Shown here: positions 51,988 through 62,028 of the stretch, one piece after another
How positions within the stretch are numbered: position 1 is the first letter of the stretch
Layout: each line of letters begins with the position of its first letter
Assembly (NCBI RefSeq): GCF_000143985.1
Contig: NC_014364.1
Location: 3,472,001-3,536,000, forward strand
Origin: Sediminispirochaeta smaragdinae DSM 11293
Lineage (GTDB): Bacteria; Spirochaetota; Spirochaetia; DSM-16054; Sediminispirochaetaceae
DNA length: 64,000 nt
Direction of reading: 5' to 3'
Notes under the pieces: model-generated
Database searches by the model: none
Told to the model about the DNA's origin: nothing
What the model saw: the letters and a program-made list of their open reading frames with translations, nothing else
Position numbers and translations under genes: made by a program

Positions 51988-52121
51988 TTCCTGTTACTAT
52001 AAACGATCACATGCCTTTTCGCATAATCTAAACAAAAAAAAGACACTTTACTGGAAAAATTATATAGATCGTACTAAATCCGCGGGCCCCCTTCCCTTGC
52101 TTTGTTTCGAATTACGCTCCA

Positions 52122-52724
52122 TTAGGGAAGAACTTGCGCATGCACATTACGTAGCATCCAAGCAACTCTTGCACTTTCTTCTAATTCTTCTAGAATATAG
52201 AACGCCGATTCAAGATCGGCGCCCCCGACAATAGGCCCATGGTGTTCCAGTAAAAACCCATCACTTTTATCAAGCCGAAGCTGAAATGCCTCAAACAACT
52301 CTCTCGAACCAGGTTTAGCGTATGGAACGAGCCCCACAGAACCAAGCTTCATTCTCAGATAGGGAGTGTAATTTGGTATCACGTCCATAGTATTAGCAGA
52401 ATGATCCAAACACGACCAAAGAGTCGAGTAAAAACTATGTGTATGTATTACCGCCTGTATGTTTTCACTTTTCTTGTACAGGAGAAGATGCAATGGTAGT
52501 TCTTTACTGGGAGTAATACCATTATGTCGATTGCCTTCTATGTCAACCACCGAAAACCGTCTGCTGGTCAAAGAACCAAAGCAAGTATTACTGGCAGTAA
52601 TATAAACCAGCCCATTATGACGGAAACTCATGTTTGCTGATGAGCCCGAGACCTTATTTCGTTCAAAAAGACTTTTCGCGACCCATAGCGCAATCTTGTA
52701 CTTCTTCGAAAGTCCACTGCGCAT
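52122..52724 (-). CDS. otnC: Class II aldolase family, 3-oxo-tetronate 4-phosphate decarboxylase-like
   Basis: Zinc-dependent class II aldolase/adducin fold. The 200-residue product has SGSSANMSFRHNG (about residues 27-39), AVIHTHSFYSTLWS (about 92-105) and FLLEHHGPIVGG (about 152-163), the metal histidines. OtnC converts 3-oxo-tetronate 4-phosphate to dihydroxyacetone phosphate plus CO2. Its neighbour is the kinase that would make this substrate, which is the main reason for the call; a fuculose-phosphate aldolase is the alternative. The ATG at 52724 has GGGAGG 7 nt upstream and is preferred to 52739. It is the last gene of the C4-acid operon. Confidence 0.83.
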   Translation of the reverse strand: MRSGLSKKYKIALWVAKSLFERNKVSGSSANMSFRHNGLVYITASNTCFGSLTSRRFSVVDIEGNRHNGITPSKELPLHLLLYKKSENIQAVIHTHSFYSTLWSCLDHSANTMDVIPNYTPYLRMKLGSVGLVPYAKPGSRELFEAFQLRLDKSDGFLLEHHGPIVGGADLESAFYILEELEESARVAWMLRNVHAQVLP

Positions 52725-52743
52725 AGTATTGCCTCCCATTTTA

Positions 52744-54018
52744 CTATTCTTTTGTCATGTCTAAGGCCCGTATAAAGAAATCTTCACCGCCGAAATTTCC
52801 AGATTTTAAGACTATTCTCATTTTGTTGTCGTTGATTGGAATCATAATGGGAACACCAGGTGACACGCTTTCCCCGATGAGCAAAGAATTATAGCCAAGC
52901 CGTTTGGTAACGGCACCCGAGGTTTCACCACCAGCAACAATGATTCTGGTAAAGCCTGCTTTTACAGCTCGCCAAGCAATTTCTGCTGCAGTGTCTTCCA
53001 GCAAACCTGCAACCGACCGCCATTGCTTTGATTGTTTTACTTCCTCAGAAATATGTGCGGTAACATTTGAACTATAGACCAAGACAGGTTTACTACGATG
53101 TTCCAACACAAAGTCCCAAAGGCGTTCGATTTCTTCCGAACCTGTCAGTTTTGAGGAGTCAATCTTTATGGATTTCCCACCCCGGTGCTTAAAAACATCA
53201 ATCTGTGCCAGTGTTGCTTGTGAACAGCTCCCAGATAAAATAAGAGCGTGCCCAGCGGTCCCCATGCTCACCTTCCCTGAAGAAGGATTATCAGAATTGG
53301 AATACCTTTTCGCAAGCTCAGTCATAAGACCGGAACCTCCGGTCAAAAGTACTAAGTCACCAAAAACATCTACAATTTTCTTTGCATCTTCATCATAGAC
53401 AAAATCAGGAATTACATAAAAATGTTCTTTATCGCTTCCAAACCTATGTATGAGTGAAAGGATTTCTTCTTTAGGTTTTTTCATCAAATACTGATCAAGT
53501 TTGAGGCATTCATATTTTCCCTGTGGCTTCATTAAATTTGCAATATCGCTATCCCACATTGGAGTAAGTGGATGGTGTTTCATTGAGCTTTCGTTCAAAG
53601 GAACACCATCGACATAAAGACAACCATTGCGTACAATTCTTTTATTAATAGGTACTGCAGGACAAAGAATAGTATATTTCGATCCAGTCTTGTTCAGCAC
53701 GTTATCGACAATGGGTCCAATATTACCATGGCGAGTAGAATCAAACGTAGAACAATACTTTAAGAAAATCTGAACGGCCTTTCGTTTCCTTAACCATTCA
53801 AACGCCTTATTTGTATCATAAACCGCTTTTTTCACCTCTTGGGTCCTGGTTTTCAAAGCAATGACAATTGCGGTAAAATCATCATCGATGTTCCGATCAT
53901 CTTCTGGAACACCATTTAAAAGCAGGGTCTTCAATCCTCCCTGTGTAAGGAATGAGGCAGCATCGCTTGCGCCAGTAAAATCATCTGCAATACACCCTAT
54001 GTATAATTGATTAGCCAT
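52744..54018 (-). CDS. otnK: Four-carbon acid sugar kinase (3-oxo-tetronate kinase, OtnK family)
   Basis: Phosphorylates the C4 hydroxyl of a four-carbon sugar acid. The 424-residue product begins MANQLYIGCIADDFTGASDAA, with the hallmark ADDFTGA of the DUF1537 family (about residues 10-16). It has a mid-domain ALILSGSCSQATLAQ (about 257-271) and a C-terminal nucleotide-binding segment IIVAGGETSGAVTKRLG (about 361-377). GAGG before the ATG supports the start. It precedes otnC by 19 bp, the same pair as in described tetronate pathways. D-threonate kinase is the main alternative activity. Confidence 0.87.
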   Translation of the reverse strand: MANQLYIGCIADDFTGASDAASFLTQGGLKTLLLNGVPEDDRNIDDDFTAIVIALKTRTQEVKKAVYDTNKAFEWLRKRKAVQIFLKYCSTFDSTRHGNIGPIVDNVLNKTGSKYTILCPAVPINKRIVRNGCLYVDGVPLNESSMKHHPLTPMWDSDIANLMKPQGKYECLKLDQYLMKKPKEEILSLIHRFGSDKEHFYVIPDFVYDEDAKKIVDVFGDLVLLTGGSGLMTELAKRYSNSDNPSSGKVSMGTAGHALILSGSCSQATLAQIDVFKHRGGKSIKIDSSKLTGSEEIERLWDFVLEHRSKPVLVYSSNVTAHISEEVKQSKQWRSVAGLLEDTAAEIAWRAVKAGFTRIIVAGGETSGAVTKRLGYNSLLIGESVSPGVPIMIPINDNKMRIVLKSGNFGGEDFFIRALDMTKE

Positions 54019-54056
54019 GGAATATCCTCGCTCTTCCTATAACCATACGTAATAAA

Positions 54057-54344
54057 TTATTCCACTTTTTTCCAAGACATGACTTCTTTACTGTTTATCC
54101 AATCTCTTATTGCATTATCGTAGACAAGATAATGATTCGACTTCAAATGACATTCAAACATCGCTTTATCTTGATAAACCTCATAAAGAAGAAAACTATT
54201 TTCTCTTAATGAATTAACAGAAATATCAAATTGATGACATCCCTTCTCCATAGCCAAAGATGCTTTAGCTTGTGAAAAGCTATGCTCAATGAATTTGTCC
54301 ACATACTCATCTTTCACATCAAATATTACCGTCACAACAAACAT
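54057..54344 (-). CDS. Antibiotic-biosynthesis-monooxygenase-fold protein (YgiN/LsrG-like)
   Basis: The 95-residue product has the dimeric ferredoxin-like ABM fold: VTVIFDVKDEYVDKFIEHSFSQAKASLAMEKGCHQFDI, then LLYEVYQDKAMFECHLKSNHY, very like YgiN and LsrG. Members act as cofactor-free oxygenases or isomerases on small, reactive molecules. In a C4-acid operon an isomerase or epimerase-like role on an oxo-acid is possible but unproven. It sits between the dehydrogenase (2 bp away) and the kinase. Confidence 0.8.
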   Translation of the reverse strand: MFVVTVIFDVKDEYVDKFIEHSFSQAKASLAMEKGCHQFDISVNSLRENSFLLYEVYQDKAMFECHLKSNHYLVYDNAIRDWINSKEVMSWKKVE

Positions 54345-54346
54345 AA

Positions 54347-55435
54347 TCAGTCCTTTTCTAATGCTTTGTTTACCAGCCCAAAAATCTCCGCTGTTCCAGA
54401 ACTACCACCTAATTCATAGGGTAATAACTTCTTAGTCCGGTAAGCCGATTTTACCGCTTCTATCAAGGTCTCACTAGCTTGTATCGCGGCATCATTTGAA
54501 AATTTAGTACCCAAGTAATCAAGCATCATTGCACCAGAAAGGATCATGCCCGTAGGGTTGGCTATACCCTTCCCGGCAATATCGGGTGCACTTCCATGGC
54601 AAGGTTGAAACACTGCATTATCATCACCAATTTCACCAGATGGCGACATCCCCATTCCTCCCATTAATGCGGCTGCTTCATCTGACAAAATATCACCAAA
54701 TTGGTTCTCTACTGGGCAAACATCGAATTCCCAAGGCCTCCTGATAAGGTTTAACGCGGCAGCATCGACGTACATGTATTCAGTCGATATTTCCGGATAA
54801 TGCTCTTTCACTTCGTTAAAAATACTTCTGAAAAAGAACATCGATGATAAAACATTCGCCTTATCAATGCATGTTACAAGGCCTCGAGTTCCTTTACTCT
54901 TTCGCCTTTGTGCTAAGCTAAAACTGTAGTCAAATAGCTTCTCAGATATTCTTCGAGTTATTTTTATTAGATTATATGCAGCCTCATGGCTGTCCAACTC
55001 ATGTGATCTAGGATAGGCAAATATGCCTTCAGTGGATTCTCGTACAATGACAAAGTTAAGCGCTTTGCTCCGTTCATCAATTAAAGGGAGAGGTAATCCC
55101 GGCATTGTTATACATGGACGTACTCCGGCATAAAGTTCTAACCGTTTTCTTAAATCATGCTGAGGGCCTATCTCTGTTCCATCAGGATATCTAACATTTG
55201 GTAATCCCATGGCAGCTAAATAGATGGCATCAGCTTGTTTAGCACGAATAAAATTTTCTTCAGGAAAACTCTCCCCTGTTCGTCTATACAGATCCGCCCC
55301 CGCTTCAATCTCAGTATATGTAAGTTTAACGCCAAACTCAGATGCAACATCAGCAACTAAATCAAATGACGGCCTTGTGATCTCCTGACCAATTCCATCA
55401 CCTGGCATTACAGCAATATCAAATTCGTTTTTCAT
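54347..55435 (-). CDS. Isopropylmalate/tartrate dehydrogenase family oxidoreductase
   Basis: NAD-dependent beta-hydroxyacid (decarboxylating) dehydrogenase. The 362-residue product shows IAVMPGDGIGQEITRP (about residues 6-21), FVIVRESTEGIFAYPRSHE (about 127-145), an ENQFGDILSDEAAALMGG region, and QPCHGSAPDIAGKGIANPTGMILSGAMMLDYLG (about 272-304). The IAGKGIANP and ESTEG patterns fit the tartrate dehydrogenase/D-malate branch as well as isopropylmalate dehydrogenase. The setting (TRAP transporter, tetronate kinase and decarboxylase) makes a four-carbon acid such as tartrate, erythronate or threonate the likely substrate. It is 21 bp after the TRAP permease gene. Confidence 0.87.
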   Translation of the reverse strand: MKNEFDIAVMPGDGIGQEITRPSFDLVADVASEFGVKLTYTEIEAGADLYRRTGESFPEENFIRAKQADAIYLAAMGLPNVRYPDGTEIGPQHDLRKRLELYAGVRPCITMPGLPLPLIDERSKALNFVIVRESTEGIFAYPRSHELDSHEAAYNLIKITRRISEKLFDYSFSLAQRRKSKGTRGLVTCIDKANVLSSMFFFRSIFNEVKEHYPEISTEYMYVDAAALNLIRRPWEFDVCPVENQFGDILSDEAAALMGGMGMSPSGEIGDDNAVFQPCHGSAPDIAGKGIANPTGMILSGAMMLDYLGTKFSNDAAIQASETLIEAVKSAYRTKKLLPYELGGSSGTAEIFGLVNKALEKD

Positions 55436-55456
55436 ATCTTGTTCCTTCGCAGTTCG

Positions 55457-56734
55457 CTATATACCTGAAATATTGGGAATAAAAGTAATGAGACTCGGAA
55501 AAAAATTCAAAATAAGTAAGATTACGATTAATACTACGACAAATGGAATTATCTCTATGGATATCCTTTCAATTGATTCATCGGCGATATTACAGGAAAC
55601 AAATAAACACAATCCAACAGGAGGCGTGATCTGACCGATAGCAAGGGCAAAAATAAAGAGGACCCCAAAATAAACAAGGTTTCCTCCCATTGCTTCAATA
55701 ACCGGATAAAAAATAGGCGTCAACAGGACTACCGCAACAGCATTATCCAAAAAAGTTCCGACAAAAAGCAAAGCTAACATCATGAGAAGTTGAATAACTA
55801 AAAGATTGTTTGAGACCGTTACAAGATAGCGCGCAAACATTTGTGGAATAGATTCACTAGCAAGAATATAGCTAAAAAGATGTGCACATGCAACAAGGTA
55901 CATTATAGAAGCAGTGCTTTTTGCAGAAGAATAAATTACTTTCTTGAAATCCGAGAATCTTAGCATTTTATAAACAAAAACACTGATTATCGTACCATAT
56001 ACGACAGCAACTGCAGCAGCCTCTGTCGGAGTAAAAATTCCACCGTAAATGCCTCCAAGAATGATTCCTGGCATCAAGATTGCCCAGATCCCATCCTTTA
56101 GTGCAGCGCCAATTCTTCCCAATGAAGCTTTTTCCGATCCTTCATATCCTCTTTTCTTGCTGATAACATATTCAAGTATCATCAGACCAATTGCCATCAT
56201 CAAACCCGGTACAATGCCACCAAGGAAAAGTTCTCCAATAGAGGCACCAGCTATTGCCCCAAATAAGACCATATTATTACTTGGGGGAATTAATAATCCG
56301 ATAGGACCGGAGGCTGCTATTGTTGCTGCCGAAAAACTTTTTTTGTATCCCTTTTTCTCCATCGATTCAACCATGATAGAACCAATCGCAGAAGTGGTGG
56401 CCGGAGCAGACCCAGAAATGGCGCCGAAAAAGGTACAAGCCAAAGTACTCACCATTGCTAAGCCACCAGTTGTTTTGCCAACAAAGGAAGCGGCAATGTT
56501 TGTTAGTTTCCGTGAAACCCCGCCTCTTGCCATTATATTCCCAGCAAAAATGAAGAATGGAATAGCCATAAGAGTGAAAGAATCAACCCCTCTAAACATC
56601 TTCTGAACAATAGTGCTCACTGATACGTCACTAAAGAAATAGATAGAGAACGTTGCTGCCATTGCTAAACAAAACGAGATCGGAATCCCTAATAAAAGGA
56701 ATACAATAAACGAAATAAAAAGCGCGATACTCAT
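55457..56734 (-). CDS. dctM: TRAP transporter large permease (DctM-like)
   Basis: Twelve-helix main subunit of a sodium-driven TRAP importer for organic acids. The 425-residue product has GIPISFCLAMAATFSIY, MAIPFFIFAGNIMARGGVSRKL (about residues 55-76), FFGAISGSAPATTSAIGSI (about 102-120), ASGPIGLLIPPSNNMVLFGA, and FTPTEAAAVAVVYG, all family landmarks. Its start overlaps the small permease stop by 4 bp. Confidence 0.96.
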   Translation of the reverse strand: MSIALFISFIVFLLLGIPISFCLAMAATFSIYFFSDVSVSTIVQKMFRGVDSFTLMAIPFFIFAGNIMARGGVSRKLTNIAASFVGKTTGGLAMVSTLACTFFGAISGSAPATTSAIGSIMVESMEKKGYKKSFSAATIAASGPIGLLIPPSNNMVLFGAIAGASIGELFLGGIVPGLMMAIGLMILEYVISKKRGYEGSEKASLGRIGAALKDGIWAILMPGIILGGIYGGIFTPTEAAAVAVVYGTIISVFVYKMLRFSDFKKVIYSSAKSTASIMYLVACAHLFSYILASESIPQMFARYLVTVSNNLLVIQLLMMLALLFVGTFLDNAVAVVLLTPIFYPVIEAMGGNLVYFGVLFIFALAIGQITPPVGLCLFVSCNIADESIERISIEIIPFVVVLIVILLILNFFPSLITFIPNISGI

Positions 56735-57273
56735 GAAGCACCTTCTTCCTTACAGTTTTTTTTGGTCATCATGCTATTGTGCTTGATATCATAATCGAAA
56801 ACTTCTACAAGTATTTTTTCCAGTGCAAAAATTCCGATGCAAAAATTGGCAATAGGAACCTGGAGAAAAACATATGCCATTTTAATAAAAGGAATATTTA
56901 CGGATGTAAGGCCATTATTATAAAATCGTAATACCAAGGTCGCAGCAAGAAACGCTGCAATCCAAACAAAAATCAATACCAACACGTGCCCTATTATGAG
57001 TACGGATTTCTTCAACCACCGTTTCTTTATAGAATTAACTAACGACATTACTGCCACATGCCCACCACTGCGGTATACAACAGCAGCACCCAAATAGGTT
57101 AGCCATGAGAAAAAGTATTTTGAGAGCTCTTCACTCCAGGCTAGTGAAATTCCCAGATGTCTTGCAACTACTTGGGCAAATACCAAGATGCTCATTGCAG
57201 GAAGAAATATCATGATTGCTATCTTGAGTACTCGATAAATCTTATTGTTCAATGCTATCAATATGCTAACCAT
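56731..57273 (-). CDS. dctQ: TRAP transporter small permease (DctQ-like)
   Basis: Four-helix subunit that joins DctM in TRAP importers. The 180-residue product has helices at about residues 15-38, 50-70, 88-112 and 128-150, with the family motif SLAWSEELSKYFFSWLTYLGAAVVYRSGGHVAV after the first helix. The C-terminus is hydrophilic. The ATG at 57273 has GGAGTG just upstream; a longer in-frame start at 57327 is only 2 bp from the binding-protein stop and lacks such a site. Confidence 0.92.
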   Translation of the reverse strand: MVSILIALNNKIYRVLKIAIMIFLPAMSILVFAQVVARHLGISLAWSEELSKYFFSWLTYLGAAVVYRSGGHVAVMSLVNSIKKRWLKKSVLIIGHVLVLIFVWIAAFLAATLVLRFYNNGLTSVNIPFIKMAYVFLQVPIANFCIGIFALEKILVEVFDYDIKHNSMMTKKNCKEEGAS

Positions 57274-57329
57274 AAACACTCCATTTCTTGTAAAGCATAC
57301 AGCATTACGCTGTATGCTTTGCCTCATTT

Positions 57330-58340
57330 TTATTTGTTAGCCTTGATCTTGTTGATGAGATCACTATATTGCTTGCCATATTCGTTATAAACAGCATCGA
57401 CAACATCATTAAATCTGGAAGGGTCTATATAATTCACTTCCATCCCTTTAATCTTCAATGCCTCAATATTTTCGTCGAAACTATTTTTAGCATCATCGAA
57501 AGCCCACTGAGACACCTCTCGCCCTACTTCAAGAAAGATTTTTTTGTCCTCAGGACTTAAACTATCAAAAGTACTCTTCGACATAATCATAGGTTCTGCT
57601 GTATGTACATGCCCAGAAATAGAGAGATATTTTTGAACCTCGTAAAGTTTTTTATCTATAATATTTGCTAAAGGATTTTCCTGAGCCTCAACTGTGTTAA
57701 GTTGGAGGGCTGTATACAGCTCACTGGTTGTAATATTTGTGGATGCTGCGCCGCAGGTATTAAAAAAAAGCATATTTGCCTTTGAGGTCGAAACACGTAT
57801 CTTTAGGCCATTAAGATCTTCAGGTGAGAAGATAGGTTGACGATTATTTGTGATCTGCCGAAAGCCATTCTCTAACCACGAAATGACCATGACATTTTTT
57901 TCTTCAAGCTTCTTTGAAAGCAGGTCACCAACTTCACCGTTCAACGTTGAATAGGCATGGTCATAATCTCGAAAAAGAAAAGGCATTCCAAGAACACTAA
58001 AATCAGGAACCAGAGTCATCAGCTTATCATCCGAAGTAATTGCAATATCAATGGTACCTAGCTGAACCGCTTCGGTTACTTCTTCCTGTGTACCAAGCTG
58101 GTTCAAAGGGAAAATGGTAATGGTATATCTTCCATTAGTTCTTTTCTCTATTTCCTCCTTGAATTTCAGTGCTGCCTTGTGATAACGATGCGTTTCAGCC
58201 GCCGAATGGCTTAATTTTAGATTAACAACGCCGTCAGATGAATTCTCACCTTGTCCATTTGCCATTACGACAGGAGTAATACATACCACGAGAGCAAGAA
58301 CGACAAACGTAGATAACATGATCCTAGCGATCTTTTTCAT
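57330..58340 (-). CDS. dctP: TRAP transporter substrate-binding protein (DctP-like)
   Basis: Periplasmic solute receptor. The 336-residue product has a signal peptide (residues 1-25, KKIARIMLSTFVVLALVVCITPVVMA). LKLSHSAAETHRYHKAALKFKEEIEKRTNGRY, FPLNQLGTQEEVTEAVQLGTIDI and LNGLKIRVSTSKANMLFFNTCGA follow, where the conserved Arg of IRV binds the substrate carboxylate, and YTALQLNTVEAQENP. The ATG at 58340 has AAGGAGG 6 nt upstream; the in-frame ATG at 58364 does not. It is the first gene of a seven-gene C4-acid operon. With an FCD regulator divergent from it, an acidic substrate is likely. Confidence 0.95.
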   Translation of the reverse strand: MKKIARIMLSTFVVLALVVCITPVVMANGQGENSSDGVVNLKLSHSAAETHRYHKAALKFKEEIEKRTNGRYTITIFPLNQLGTQEEVTEAVQLGTIDIAITSDDKLMTLVPDFSVLGMPFLFRDYDHAYSTLNGEVGDLLSKKLEEKNVMVISWLENGFRQITNNRQPIFSPEDLNGLKIRVSTSKANMLFFNTCGAASTNITTSELYTALQLNTVEAQENPLANIIDKKLYEVQKYLSISGHVHTAEPMIMSKSTFDSLSPEDKKIFLEVGREVSQWAFDDAKNSFDENIEALKIKGMEVNYIDPSRFNDVVDAVYNEYGKQYSDLINKIKANK

Positions 58341-58492
58341 AATGGTCCTCCTTAGACCTATCAATTTTATTAAAATTCCGCTTTACGAAATTTTCTAAAC
58401 GTTTACTGCTACTAAGCACCTCCCCGTTTCTGTGTATTATCTTTTATGTTACTTTTACTGGTATGATTGGTTAACTACATAACTTATCAACT

Positions 58493-58521
58493 GTTATACC
58501 ATTGACTTTTCAGTTTGTCAA
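58493..58521 (-). promoter_or_regulatory. Promoter of the TRAP/C4-acid operon
   Basis: On the minus strand TTGACA (58516-58521) and TATAAC (58493-58498) have a 17-bp spacer, close to consensus. The inverted GGTATA box overlaps the -10 element. Confidence 0.8.
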
Positions 58522-58590
58522 CGTATTTTTATATTCCTGTAATGGACATACTTGCATTGACGTACATCGATTATTCGGTATACATTATGC

Positions 58591-58599
58591 TGGTATAAT
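58591..58599 (+). promoter_or_regulatory. Extended -10 promoter of the GntR gene
   Basis: TGGTATAAT (58591-58599) is a perfect extended -10 element. The start would fall inside the adjacent 16-bp palindrome, consistent with autorepression. The -35 is poor, as is usual for this promoter type. Confidence 0.6.
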
Positions 58600-58672
58600 A
58601 TGTTAACATATTTACGTGTCAACCAATCACGTTAATGAGAATTTGGTTGAGTCTTTTTGAGGTAGTCTATTT

Positions 58673-59401
58673 ATGGCAAAGCGAATTATCCATAGGAAAA
58701 AAATCTACGAAGAAATTGTTGATCATCTTTTCGACGATATCAAAAATGGGGTGTATAAAGTTAACGAAGAGCTGCCTTCAGAAAGAGAGCTGATGGAGGA
58801 GTTTGGTGTCGGCCGTCCAGCTGTTCGTGAAGCTATTTCCAAACTTGAATTAATGGGCTTAATTGACGTTAGATCCGGTTCAGTGGCAAAAGTTCGTGAG
58901 CCAACAATCCAGCGCTTAGTCGATGAAATGTCGGGGGTTGTTCAGCTTCTTCTGATGTCACCAGAGGGTGAAGCTACATTTCAAGAAATACGACTCATAT
59001 TAGAAGTAGCTCTCGTACGAAAGGCTGCGCGTGATGCGGGATCAGAGCAAATTAGAAAACTAGAGTTAGCATTAGAGGACAACAGGCAGAATCTGAACGA
59101 TAGAAACAAATTTGCCGAAAGTGATTTATCTTTTCACCAAGCCTTAGCAGAAATCACAGGAAATTCAGTAATTATTGGGGTAATGCAATCTCTCAGCTCC
59201 TGGTTAATGAGAAAACGGGAAGTAACCCTTGCAAAATCCGGTCAAAGTAAAATGGCATTTGAGGCTCACCAAAAGATTTTAGATGGAATAAAAAAACGAA
59301 ACCCAGATTTAGCTGAAACAGCAATGCAAGATCACTTATCGCAGATCCAAAATATCTGGGCCGAACAAATTGATAATGAAATATCGGAGTCAGGCTCATA
59401 G
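58673..59401 (+). CDS. GntR/FCD-family regulator of the C4-acid operon
   Basis: The 242-residue product has the winged helix KIYEEIVDHLFDDIKNGVY, LPSERELMEEFGVGRPAVREAISKLELMGLIDVRSG (about residues 10-78) and an FCD domain (about 100-235) with ESDLSFHQALAEITGNSVI and a late FEAHQKILDGI histidine, which form a metal-carboxylate site in relatives such as LldR and NanR. It diverges from the TRAP operon and most likely represses it until the acid, or a metabolite of it, is present. Confidence 0.92.
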   Translation: MAKRIIHRKKIYEEIVDHLFDDIKNGVYKVNEELPSERELMEEFGVGRPAVREAISKLELMGLIDVRSGSVAKVREPTIQRLVDEMSGVVQLLLMSPEGEATFQEIRLILEVALVRKAARDAGSEQIRKLELALEDNRQNLNDRNKFAESDLSFHQALAEITGNSVIIGVMQSLSSWLMRKREVTLAKSGQSKMAFEAHQKILDGIKKRNPDLAETAMQDHLSQIQNIWAEQIDNEISESGS

Positions 59402-59402
59402 C

Positions 59403-59748
59403 CTGCTCCTATCTCGAAGAAAATCCCAATCCCAATAGGCAAAAACAACATATATTGGATTCCACACTGGAACAATATGTATCACATCACTTCCATACCC
59501 AAACGCAAAACGACTAATCGTAAGTCTCGACATGAAGCAGATAAGAAAACCAAGCACAGCGCAGTCAAGGCGGGTCATCTTCAGCTCATGGAGATAGGTC
59601 CGTTTTTTCTTTGTAGCGCAAAAGTCTCTGGTTTCCATCGCGTTTGCAAGATTTGTGCTGGCTTTCAAACCGGTGATGATCACCGATACGATGATAGGCA
59701 TGTACGATTTGGGCCGCGTAATGAATGATCCTTTTTCCAGGTCAAGCC
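59403..59748 (-). pseudogene. Remnant of ECF transporter transmembrane subunit EcfT
   Basis: In a minus-strand frame, RPKSYMPIIVSVIITGL followed by NLANAMETRDF and a trailing KKKRTYLHELKMTRLDC matches the C-terminal third of EcfT (the AMExRGF coupling region). It is joined without a break to the end of a damaged ATPase (DLEKGSFI), so most of EcfT has been deleted, including its start. Downstream residues degrade into sequence without clear EcfT character. Confidence 0.65.
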
Positions 59749-60287
59749 CGCGGGTTTTCTGGGCGTCCGCCACCATGATGATAATCGTATGCCCCTGGTC
59801 GTTTGCATCCCTTACAATATCCATAAGAACGGTACTGCTTTTTCTGTCGAGTCCAACGGTCGGTCCATCCAGGGTAAGAAGTTGGGCAAAATATCTGATG
59901 GTCGGGATTCTGAAAAACAAATCCAACTTCACGCGAGATTTGCGCGATGCTCATATCCTTCGTATCCTTCCCATACAGAAAAACGCTTCCCTCGCAAGGC
60001 CTTAGCAAACCGACAAGATGCTTTGCCAGCGTTGTCTTACCAGAGCCATTCCGGCACATTCCAAGCCGAAGGCCACTTCATCTTCCACACTCATCGTAAA
60101 CAGTTGCGTCTCGGGATCCTGAAATACGACCCCGACCGTTCCCGCCAAACTGGCAACCTCAGCCTCTTTTGTGTTCATGCCGCAGGTGAACACATCACCC
60201 TTCACTGACCTTTACAGGGGCTTCACCCTAGGCCATAGGCGGATAACTGAAGGAAAAGTTTTCGATTGTGATGACAGTCTCATCCAT
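59749..60287 (-). pseudogene. Remnants of two ECF ATPases (EcfA1/EcfA2), fused and frameshifted
   Basis: The first ATPase begins at 60287 (MDETVITIENFSFSYPPM) and stops after 19 codons at 60228. In another frame VVFQDPETQLFTMSVEDEVAFGLE survives, but the Walker A segment between is gone. It then runs straight into the Walker A of a second ATPase (NGSGKTTLAKHLVGLL) in a third frame. Next comes GFVFQNPDHQIF, followed directly by the Walker B region LLTLDGPTVGLD, with Gly where the catalytic Glu should be. The LSGGQ signature stretch is deleted. No functional protein can result. Confidence 0.8.
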
Positions 60288-60626: not shown

Positions 60627-61778
60627 TTAATACAGTTCTGATAAAGCAGCTTCGAGCCCATCTCCTATTTTTGCGGGAAATCCTCTATCCCTCAGGGCTT
60701 TCCCTACAAATGTCAATGCGGTCATTACAGGCATCGGCTTAGCCGTATGGCCCATGTGGCCGATCCTGAGCAACGCACCATTCAACTCTCCATATCCGGG
60801 AGAAATGACGACACCGTATGTTTCCCGCAAATGTTCAATAAATGAGGCCGATTCAATCGCCTCGGGAATCTTAAAGGCGGTACAGCAATCTGTAGCGATG
60901 AATTCCGATTCCGGCCACAGCGACAGCCCCATTGCCTTTAGCCCCGCTCTGCAGGCTCTTGCACAATCGCCATGTCGCTTCCAGACCGCTTCAAGCCCCT
61001 CTTCAAAGATCATATCCAGGGCGGCATTAAGGGCGTAGATCAACGAGACGGAAGGCGTATAGGGAAATGCTCCATGTGTCAGCCACTTCTCTTTCCAGTC
61101 GAGCATGCTGAGAAAGGTATTACGGGCAGGGTTCGAAGCAGCAATCCTCTGCCATGCATCCGGACTTACCGCCATCAAACTCAGACCAGGCATCGCACCT
61201 ATACACTTTTGCGGACCGGTAATGCAGATATCAATTCCCCATTCATCGGTTCTCACTTCACTACCCGCAACGCCTGAAACAGAATCGACAAGGGTGATAG
61301 CCCCATATTCTTTAGCAATAGGACACAGCTCGTTAATGGGATTTATCGTTCCCGAAGGGGTCTCAGAATGGACAACACTCATCAGTTTTATATCGGGGTT
61401 CTTCTCAAAGGCAGAACGTACTTCTTCCGGAGTAATCGAGCTGTTGTAGTCTTTCCGAATTTCAACCACTTTGCCACCGTACATATGGATAAAGTCTTCA
61501 AACCATTTACCGAACACCCCGGTAACGAGGTTCAAACAGGTATCTCCGGGCCTGATACAACTGAATGCGGCCGCCTCAAGTCCCAGTATCGCCTCGCCTT
61601 GCATGATGATGATATCATTACTTGTTAGAAATAGTTTTTTAAGCTTCTCCTCAACGCCATGGTGCAACTGTTTAAACGCCGGATCATAATGATAGAGGAT
61701 TGGTTCTGCCGCCGCTTTCGATACACGCGGATGTATTTCAGCCGGGCCAGCAGACATTGTCAGTTTGTCATACTTCAC
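60627..61778 (-). CDS. Pyridoxamine--pyruvate transaminase-like class V aminotransferase
   Basis: PLP-family aminotransferase. The 383-residue product resembles the Mesorhizobium pyridoxamine-pyruvate transaminase (from memory) through the whole chain: LTMSAGPAEIHPRV, LYHYDPAFKQL, GEAILGLEAAA, ETPSGTINPI, ITGPQKCIGAMPGL with Lys191 as the expected Schiff-base lysine, FPYTPSVSLI, and LLRIGHMGHTAKP near the end. That enzyme converts pyridoxamine and pyruvate to pyridoxal and alanine in vitamin B6 degradation. Serine/alanine-glyoxylate aminotransferase is the alternative. GTG at 61778, 5 nt after GAGGTG, is the preferred start; an ATG at 61844 would add an unconserved 22 residues. Confidence 0.82.
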   Translation of the reverse strand: MKYDKLTMSAGPAEIHPRVSKAAAEPILYHYDPAFKQLHHGVEEKLKKLFLTSNDIIIMQGEAILGLEAAAFSCIRPGDTCLNLVTGVFGKWFEDFIHMYGGKVVEIRKDYNSSITPEEVRSAFEKNPDIKLMSVVHSETPSGTINPINELCPIAKEYGAITLVDSVSGVAGSEVRTDEWGIDICITGPQKCIGAMPGLSLMAVSPDAWQRIAASNPARNTFLSMLDWKEKWLTHGAFPYTPSVSLIYALNAALDMIFEEGLEAVWKRHGDCARACRAGLKAMGLSLWPESEFIATDCCTAFKIPEAIESASFIEHLRETYGVVISPGYGELNGALLRIGHMGHTAKPMPVMTALTFVGKALRDRGFPAKIGDGLEAALSELY

Positions 61779-62028
61779 GTGAACACCTCGCTTTTTCCAT
61801 CCATACTTGAATTTGTACATGTAAATTAAGTGCCAATTTTCCAATGGAAGTGATTAGGTAAAAAAAGAACATCGATGTAATCTTTTTAATACAATCAATT
61901 ATTAGATTCAAGACATTAAATCCCAGCATCAAATACGAAGGGAAACAGATCAAACAGCTTTATATCGCCCAATTTCTTCCATAGAGACAGGGATATACCG
62001 ATCTTTGCAGTAGGCTTTGAAAGGTGTA
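61779..62028. other. AT-rich intergenic region
   Basis: About 250 bp between two minus-strand genes with no RNA gene, palindrome or convincing coding frame. It is expected to hold the promoter of the transaminase gene, but none stands out. Confidence 0.4.

Follow-up and report, generated by a model that had tools for sequence, protein, structure and literature searches.

How does a bacterium provide the kinase OtnK and the decarboxylase OtnC with their substrate, when the operon that encodes both enzymes lacks the gene for the isomerase OtnI? This question is raised by a seven-gene cluster of Sediminispirochaeta smaragdinae DSM 11293, located in a stretch of 64,000 nucleotides (termed the window here, with positions counted from its first nucleotide) that corresponds to positions 3472001-3536000 of the single contig comprising the genome of 4,653,970 bases. 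A first-pass annotation had placed genes for a TRAP transporter, OtnK-like and OtnC-like proteins, an ABM-fold protein and a dehydrogenase between positions 52122 and 59401, and had noted that OtnI was missing. Family profiles recovered each of these genes, and a family profile search of the window proteins revealed neither OtnI nor LtnD nor PdxA in the operon.

The L-threonate/D-erythronate pathway, reportedly described by Zhang et al. in 2016, employs LtnD or DenD, OtnI, OtnK and OtnC. The window operon resembles this canonical route in a kinase above the OtnK cut-off, in a decarboxylase of the Aldolase_II type and in the proposed end product dihydroxyacetone phosphate (DHAP). However, canonical entry is catalysed by LtnD, a beta-hydroxyacid dehydrogenase, or by DenD, a short-chain dehydrogenase/reductase (SDR), whereas the entry enzyme of the window belongs to the Iso_dh family, and an ABM protein is present in place of OtnI. 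According to PMC12540250, LtnD yields 2-oxo-L-threonate, and OtnK and OtnC of the Aldolase_II type use the 3-oxo form. Since the Aldolase_II type is tied to a 3-oxo substrate in this source, a 3-oxo compound would have to be made.

The pathway that we propose, to which as a whole we assign a probability of roughly 0.55 by reasoning from sequence, would begin with uptake by the TRAP transporter of a C4 sugar acid with a (2R) hydroxyl group, namely D-erythronate and/or L-threonate. The dehydrogenase (DH) would oxidise C2 with NAD(P)+ without loss of CO2, yielding 2-oxo-tetronate, and the ABM protein would shift the carbonyl from C2 to C3 via an enediol in a manner similar to LsrG, thereby replacing OtnI. 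OtnK (DUF1537; 52744-54018, minus strand), which passes the cut-off for 3-oxo-tetronate kinase (NF043035, 402 bits, cut-off 350), would then phosphorylate C4, and the OtnC-like protein (52122-52739, minus strand) would decarboxylate the product to DHAP. The latter matches PF00596 (Aldolase_II) only, contains the residues HTH at 99-101 and EHHG at 165, and is related to the OtnC family at a score under the cut-off (NF043034, 170 bits, cut-off 250). That the operon serves a C4 sugar acid and ends in DHAP is highly probable, and oxidation at C2 by DH is moderately likely. We infer the particular tetronate substrate and the activity of the ABM protein, for which a role as 2-oxo- to 3-oxo-tetronate isomerase is slightly favoured. 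Conserved neighbourhoods together with the residue evidence support what the first-pass annotation had suggested, a variant route to DHAP in which the ABM protein may stand in for OtnI.

DH (54347-55435, minus strand), the proposed (2R)-tetronate 2-dehydrogenase, is an Iso_dh protein (PF00180, 273 bits, cut-off 27). However, DH stays under every NCBIfam equivalog cut-off, including those for LeuB (242 versus 353 bits) and tartrate dehydrogenase (TTC; 232 versus 470 bits). In the tree it occupies an end branch of 1.05, and no supported set of up to half the rows includes it. DH and its relatives, which occur in numerous Proteobacteria and in a handful of further phyla, are by their sequences a distinct Iso_dh subfamily. 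All 86 subfamily members, comprising the window protein and those of 80 genome loci and five plasmid loci, contain Phe at the position aligned with Tyr139 of the Thermus isopropylmalate dehydrogenase. In contrast, Tyr is present in all 30 control Iso_dh proteins taken from spirochaete relatives as well as in E. coli LeuB and DmlA; in a nearer outgroup of three proteins it is found in two, and Phe in one (Rhodococcus, L026). Residues R96, R106, R132, K192, D224 and D248 are retained in the subfamily and the controls alike. As judged by the residue alignment, DH therefore shares with the 3-isopropylmalate, tartrate and D-malate dehydrogenases the catalytic Lys, the metal-binding Asp residues and three Arg residues, and differs from them by Phe in place of the catalytic Tyr, by forming a separate subfamily and by its scores under the equivalog cut-offs.

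We presume that this Tyr acts as an acid after decarboxylation, and we take the functions of the Arg residues and the numbering by the Thermus enzyme as background. Both substrates of the canonical OtnI route, D-erythronate (2R,3R) and L-threonate (2R,3S), are in line with the use of (2R)-hydroxy acids by Iso_dh enzymes. The Lys-Tyr pair accounts for the acid-base chemistry of the oxidative decarboxylases, as indicated by the title of a paper by Aktas and Cook (2009) that PMC8468904 cites. Loss of the Tyr with retention of the Lys and the metal ligands is what would be expected for oxidation without decarboxylation.

The ABM protein (54057-54344, minus strand; PF03992, 51.5 bits, cut-off 23.1) has LsrG as its sole NCBIfam match, at 37.5 bits and thus under the cut-off of 135, and LsrG is the only such match for each of four ABM proteins scanned. 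Conserved in the subfamily are E33, C36, D40, E55, Y57, H66, H71 and K86. The residues in common with LsrG are V6, S29, E33, F39, D40, Y54, E55, Y57, H66 and H71, six of which (E33, D40, E55, Y57, H66 and H71) are invariant or almost invariant in the ABM subfamily. Thus, the likeness to LsrG consists in shared residues and in the ketone shift of a small molecule, the detailed chemistry of which is taken here as background; the proteins differ in score, in Cys36, which is invariant in the ABM subfamily and Asn in LsrG, and in the absence of lsr genes from the window operon. The LsrG reaction is mentioned in PMC12274486, and the fact that LsrG is an isomerase of a quorum signal, phospho-AI-2, indicates that the ABM fold is capable of such a shift.

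The first-pass annotation had recommended a neighbourhood search for the dehydrogenase-ABM-otnK-otnC set. When genome contigs, many of them short, were scanned with DH, the best 80 of 588 candidate loci derived mostly from Alpha-, Beta- and Gammaproteobacteria and, in small numbers, from Desulfobacterales, Planctomycetota, Acidobacteria, Poribacteria and Armatimonadetes. Among these 80 loci, profiles identified ABM in 36, otnK in 21, otnC in 17 and OtnI in two, counts that may run low, as the otnK gene of L053 was found by blastp and missed by the profile. ABM accompanies 20 of the 21 DH loci carrying otnK. Sequence of 8 kb or more flanks DH on each side at 36 loci, of which 21 contain ABM and 15 otnK; ABM occurs at 14 of the 15 otnK-bearing loci versus seven of the 21 others (Fisher p ~0.0004, with related sequences that are not independent). 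A plasmid search yielded full-length DH relatives with 46-51% identity. ABM, otnK and an OtnC-type aldolase adjoin DH on plasmids of Sulfitobacter, Rhizobium and Agrobacterium; a Marinovum plasmid has ABM and a metallo-beta-lactamase-type hydrolase beside DH without otnK, and in Cupriavidus (L023) neither ABM nor otnK lies within ~7 kb of DH.

The reverse survey, seeded with OtnK in 289 genomes of the class to which locus L067 belongs, gave 39 matches in 37 genomes, corresponding to 38 loci, all of which were examined. ABM was observed at all four loci with DH, one of them in the centre genome, and at none of the 34 loci without DH (p ~1e-4 with the centre genome left out). OtnI was found at 11 of the 38 loci, never together with DH. 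As 23 loci contain neither DH nor OtnI, the lack of OtnI alone is nothing out of the ordinary. Taken together, the gene set recurs across phyla beyond chance, and the apparent exchange of both opening enzymes is shared by many bacteria of marine and soil habitats; we found no description of the set in the literature, in a search that covered few subscription papers.

Locus L084 encodes DH, ABM, LtnD (468 bits, cut-off 350), OtnK and OtnC, with no OtnI at the locus. Given that LtnD produces a 2-oxo acid and that OtnK and OtnC take the 3-oxo form, this locus should hold a carbonyl-moving activity, for which ABM is the candidate. However, the argument is weakened by an OtnI/Hyi-type gene elsewhere in the same genome (L116), which passes both cut-offs. 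At three further loci, those of an alphaproteobacterial metagenome-assembled genome (L094), an uncultured SAR116 isolate (L105) and the SAR116 cluster bacterium AG-335-B03 (L107), we observed DH-ABM-otnK without otnC. A divergent gene beside otnK, RraA-like in L094 (PF03737), may act there as a replacement for the decarboxylase.

Among the best 80 of 588 DH loci, profiles also detected MocA in 38, an SGL lactonase in 22 and a metallo-beta-lactamase-type lactonase in 15. The most general form of our proposal is that both opening steps are non-orthologous replacements, with a non-decarboxylating Phe139-type Iso_dh protein as tetronate 2-dehydrogenase and a cofactor-free LsrG-related ABM protein as the keto isomerase replacing OtnI, and that some lineages add two upstream enzymes, a dehydrogenase of the MocA family and a lactonase of the SGL or metallo-beta-lactamase type, which would make a C4 sugar or lactone the starting compound. 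We consider the chances of this extended version to be evenly balanced.

Several observations weigh against the proposed pathway. Neither ABM nor otnK is present at 14 of the 36 well-flanked DH loci, and the DH subfamily may therefore serve other purposes as well. L050 encodes DH, otnK and otnC with no ABM within 10 kb, and L079 contains ABM and OtnI at one locus. The OtnC-like protein of the window misses its family cut-off. The conserved ABM residues are mostly common to LsrG, yet some of them may be general to the fold. In addition, ABM relatives can stand alone. Surveys seeded with ABM gave matches in six of 369 and 11 of 289 genomes, centre genomes included, the 289 being largely those of the OtnK survey, with which these results hence overlap. 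Nine of the 17 genes adjoin DH and/or otnK, including nine of the ten scoring at least 110 bits (the exception is L192), which by contrast supports the proposed pathway, and five of these nine loci were already known from the other surveys (L054, L141, L143, L158 and L163); the remaining eight genes stand alone, and the neighbourhoods of matches away from DH loci revealed no informative common pathway. Further counterevidence, from the Arg residues of DH and from unlinked isomerase genes, is treated below with the explanations it favours.

The best-surviving alternative, though an unlikely one, is that DH oxidises C3 directly to 3-oxo-tetronate, as a PdxA-like enzyme would, in which case no isomerase would be needed and ABM would be an accessory protein, for instance one holding an unstable keto acid in one form. 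The C3 hydroxyl is beta to the carboxylate, matching the beta-hydroxyacid chemistry of Iso_dh proteins, and loss of the Tyr acid could protect a beta-keto acid from decarboxylation; moreover, L050 lacks just the gene that would be dispensable. However, oxidation by Iso_dh enzymes takes place at the carbon carrying the alpha-carboxylate, ABM is present at nearly all DH loci with otnK, and in L084 it accompanies a true LtnD, the maker of a 2-oxo acid.

The three retained Arg residues point in another direction. In malate-type substrates these residues bind two carboxylates, and their retention would be unexpected for an enzyme acting on a monocarboxylate. The substrate could instead be a malate-like dicarboxylate, such as a hydroxymethyl-tartrate related to oxidised apiose, which DH would decarboxylate to 2-oxo-tetronate for conversion by ABM, OtnK and OtnC; the sugar-oxidising MocA-family proteins and lactonases at sister loci are in line with this idea. 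We regard it as doubtful, since the Tyr used in decarboxylation is replaced in every member of the subfamily, the receptor belongs to a clade present in some tetronate operons, and the kinase is OtnK rather than the apionate kinase OiaK (111 bits, cut-off 700).

Equally doubtful is that ABM has another job and leaves the isomerisation to an OtnI/hydroxypyruvate-isomerase-like enzyme encoded at an unlinked site. The genome of S. smaragdinae contains no OtnI at the cut-off; its best candidate, a hydroxypyruvate-isomerase-like protein of 278 residues, reaches 130 bits versus 325, and the gene next to it is MocA-like and unrelated to tetronates. Of 21 other genomes carrying the gene set, 18 contain a closer gene of the OtnI/hydroxypyruvate-isomerase type elsewhere, which speaks against our proposal and rules out a genome-wide absence of OtnI from all genomes bearing the set. 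Of eight such unlinked genes examined, some adjoin an LtnD-type gene and some pass the OtnI and Hyi cut-offs both. However, it is ABM, not OtnI, that co-occurs with DH.

D-threonate is degraded via PdxA2 and DtnK, and the fold of PdxA2 is related to that of Iso_dh. The window operon has in common with this pathway a DUF1537 kinase and a dehydrogenase of related fold. Nevertheless, we did not find the PdxA2-like enzyme with a D-threonate kinase that the first-pass annotation had considered as a refutation: the dehydrogenase matches PF00180 and not PdxA, and the kinase, above the cut-off for OtnK, obtains 120 bits for DtnK (NF047819, cut-off 450). Least probable is the three-step bypass, in which 2-OtnK and 2-OtnC act on the 2-oxo acid and ABM would be incidental: it likewise has a DUF1537 kinase and no OtnI, but according to PMC12540250 it employs LtnD and a 2-OtnC of the F_bP_aldolase type, whereas the window encodes an Iso_dh protein, an Aldolase_II-type OtnC and a kinase passing the 3-oxo-tetronate kinase cut-off. 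The gene set is thus best regarded as a variant of tetronate catabolism that is a member of neither the four-step route, from which both opening enzymes differ, nor the bypass, from which it is set apart by the Aldolase_II-type OtnC.

The TRAP transporter bears on the substrate. The solved structures nearest to its solute receptor DctP (57330-58364, minus strand; PF03480 and TIGR00787, both over cut-off) by sequence are 4pdd, 4pdh, 4nq8 and 4p9k. A structure model built from 13 sequences (pLDDT 88), which replaced a single-sequence prediction with a pLDDT of 36, again ranked these four near the top in a structure search. We assume that the ligands in 4pdd, 4pdh, 4p9k, 4pak and 4nq8 are D-erythronate or pantoate; a search for these five receptor structures found no paper in the literature covered. 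The receptor of sister locus L054 has the same best matches as DctP, and that of L074 has others, with 4p47 first. When 299 genomes of one family were compared with the 4pdh sequence and 20 loci were picked along the ranking, ltnD, otnK, otnC and otnI stood beside the receptor gene in four (L178, L181, L183 and L184). L185 contains an otnK-profile match only, and the other 15 have no otn gene. These include the ten loci of highest identity to 4pdh (L167-L176, 80-94%), so that no link between the 4pdh protein itself and a tetronate operon was obtained. The receptor clade thus includes, and is not limited to, receptors of tetronate operons, some of them canonical. As this clade points to ordinary tetronates, the different four-carbon acid entertained by the first-pass annotation is not needed. 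At L178, a second DUF1537-type kinase in two overlapping frames lies ~8 kb from the canonical ltnD-otnK-otnC-otnI-TRAP operon, together with a Tyr-type relative of DH.

The seven minus-strand genes are closely packed in the order dctP-dctQ-dctM-DH-ABM-otnK-otnC. As the intergenic distances between the genes as called range from -4 to 38 bases, they likely form a single operon. The permeases are encoded by dctM (large subunit, 55457-56734, minus strand; PF06808 and TIGR00786, both over cut-off) and dctQ (small subunit, 56731-57327, minus strand; PF04290). The annotated start of dctQ is probably too far upstream, the real one being the ATG at 57273, which is preceded by GGAG. Directly behind the dctP stop and before this likely start, a hairpin of 12-14 bp (57290-57322, minus strand) is predicted, with a folding energy of -20.2 kcal/mol for a stretch of 79 nt (z -2.9); it may raise the expression of dctP above that of the permeases.

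A GntR/FCD regulator (58673-59401, plus strand; PF00392 and PF07729) is divergently encoded. Nearest to NanR (NF003011, 235 bits, cut-off 260), it would probably keep the operon repressed unless the acid or a pathway intermediate is present. The control region in between (58365-58672) contains three GGTATA hexamers, which we take to be the NanR operator unit, at 58495-58500 (minus strand), 58577-58582 and 58592-58597 (both plus strand); the whole window contains 24 such hexamers versus 16 expected.

The GC content of the operon (38-43%, within 52000-59000) is lower than on both sides (mostly 44-53%), and of 246 further genomes from this phylum, just four contain relatives of DH at an E value of 1e-60 or better, with 38-40% identity. 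The lower GC content and the near absence of relatives in the phylum suggest that the operon was gained horizontally. Beside the regulator, the minus strand contains short frames (59396-60059) that overlap one another, resemble pieces of an ABC transporter ATPase and likely represent a decayed gene. Positions 60627-61844 encode a class V aminotransferase, nearest to pyridoxamine-pyruvate transaminase (432 bits, cut-off 600), which is not linked to the operon.

Elsewhere in the same genome (L123, G000:C1:1328000-1343000) we observed a second otnK-otnC operon, with both genes over cut-off (572 and 270 bits), which includes transport of the TctABC type and an oxidoreductase of the DRL family and likewise lacks OtnI. 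S. smaragdinae itself may here have yet another, third type of entry module.

If the proposed pathway is correct, it would assign a function to widespread genes annotated as 'isocitrate/isopropylmalate dehydrogenase family' and 'putative quinol monooxygenase', and an ABM-fold protein would take on the role of an isomerase in sugar-acid catabolism. Moreover, the exchange of Tyr for Phe at position 139 would provide a one-residue mark of non-decarboxylating Iso_dh members. Finally, it would suggest that OtnK and OtnC represent a common exit that is supplied by several unrelated entry modules.

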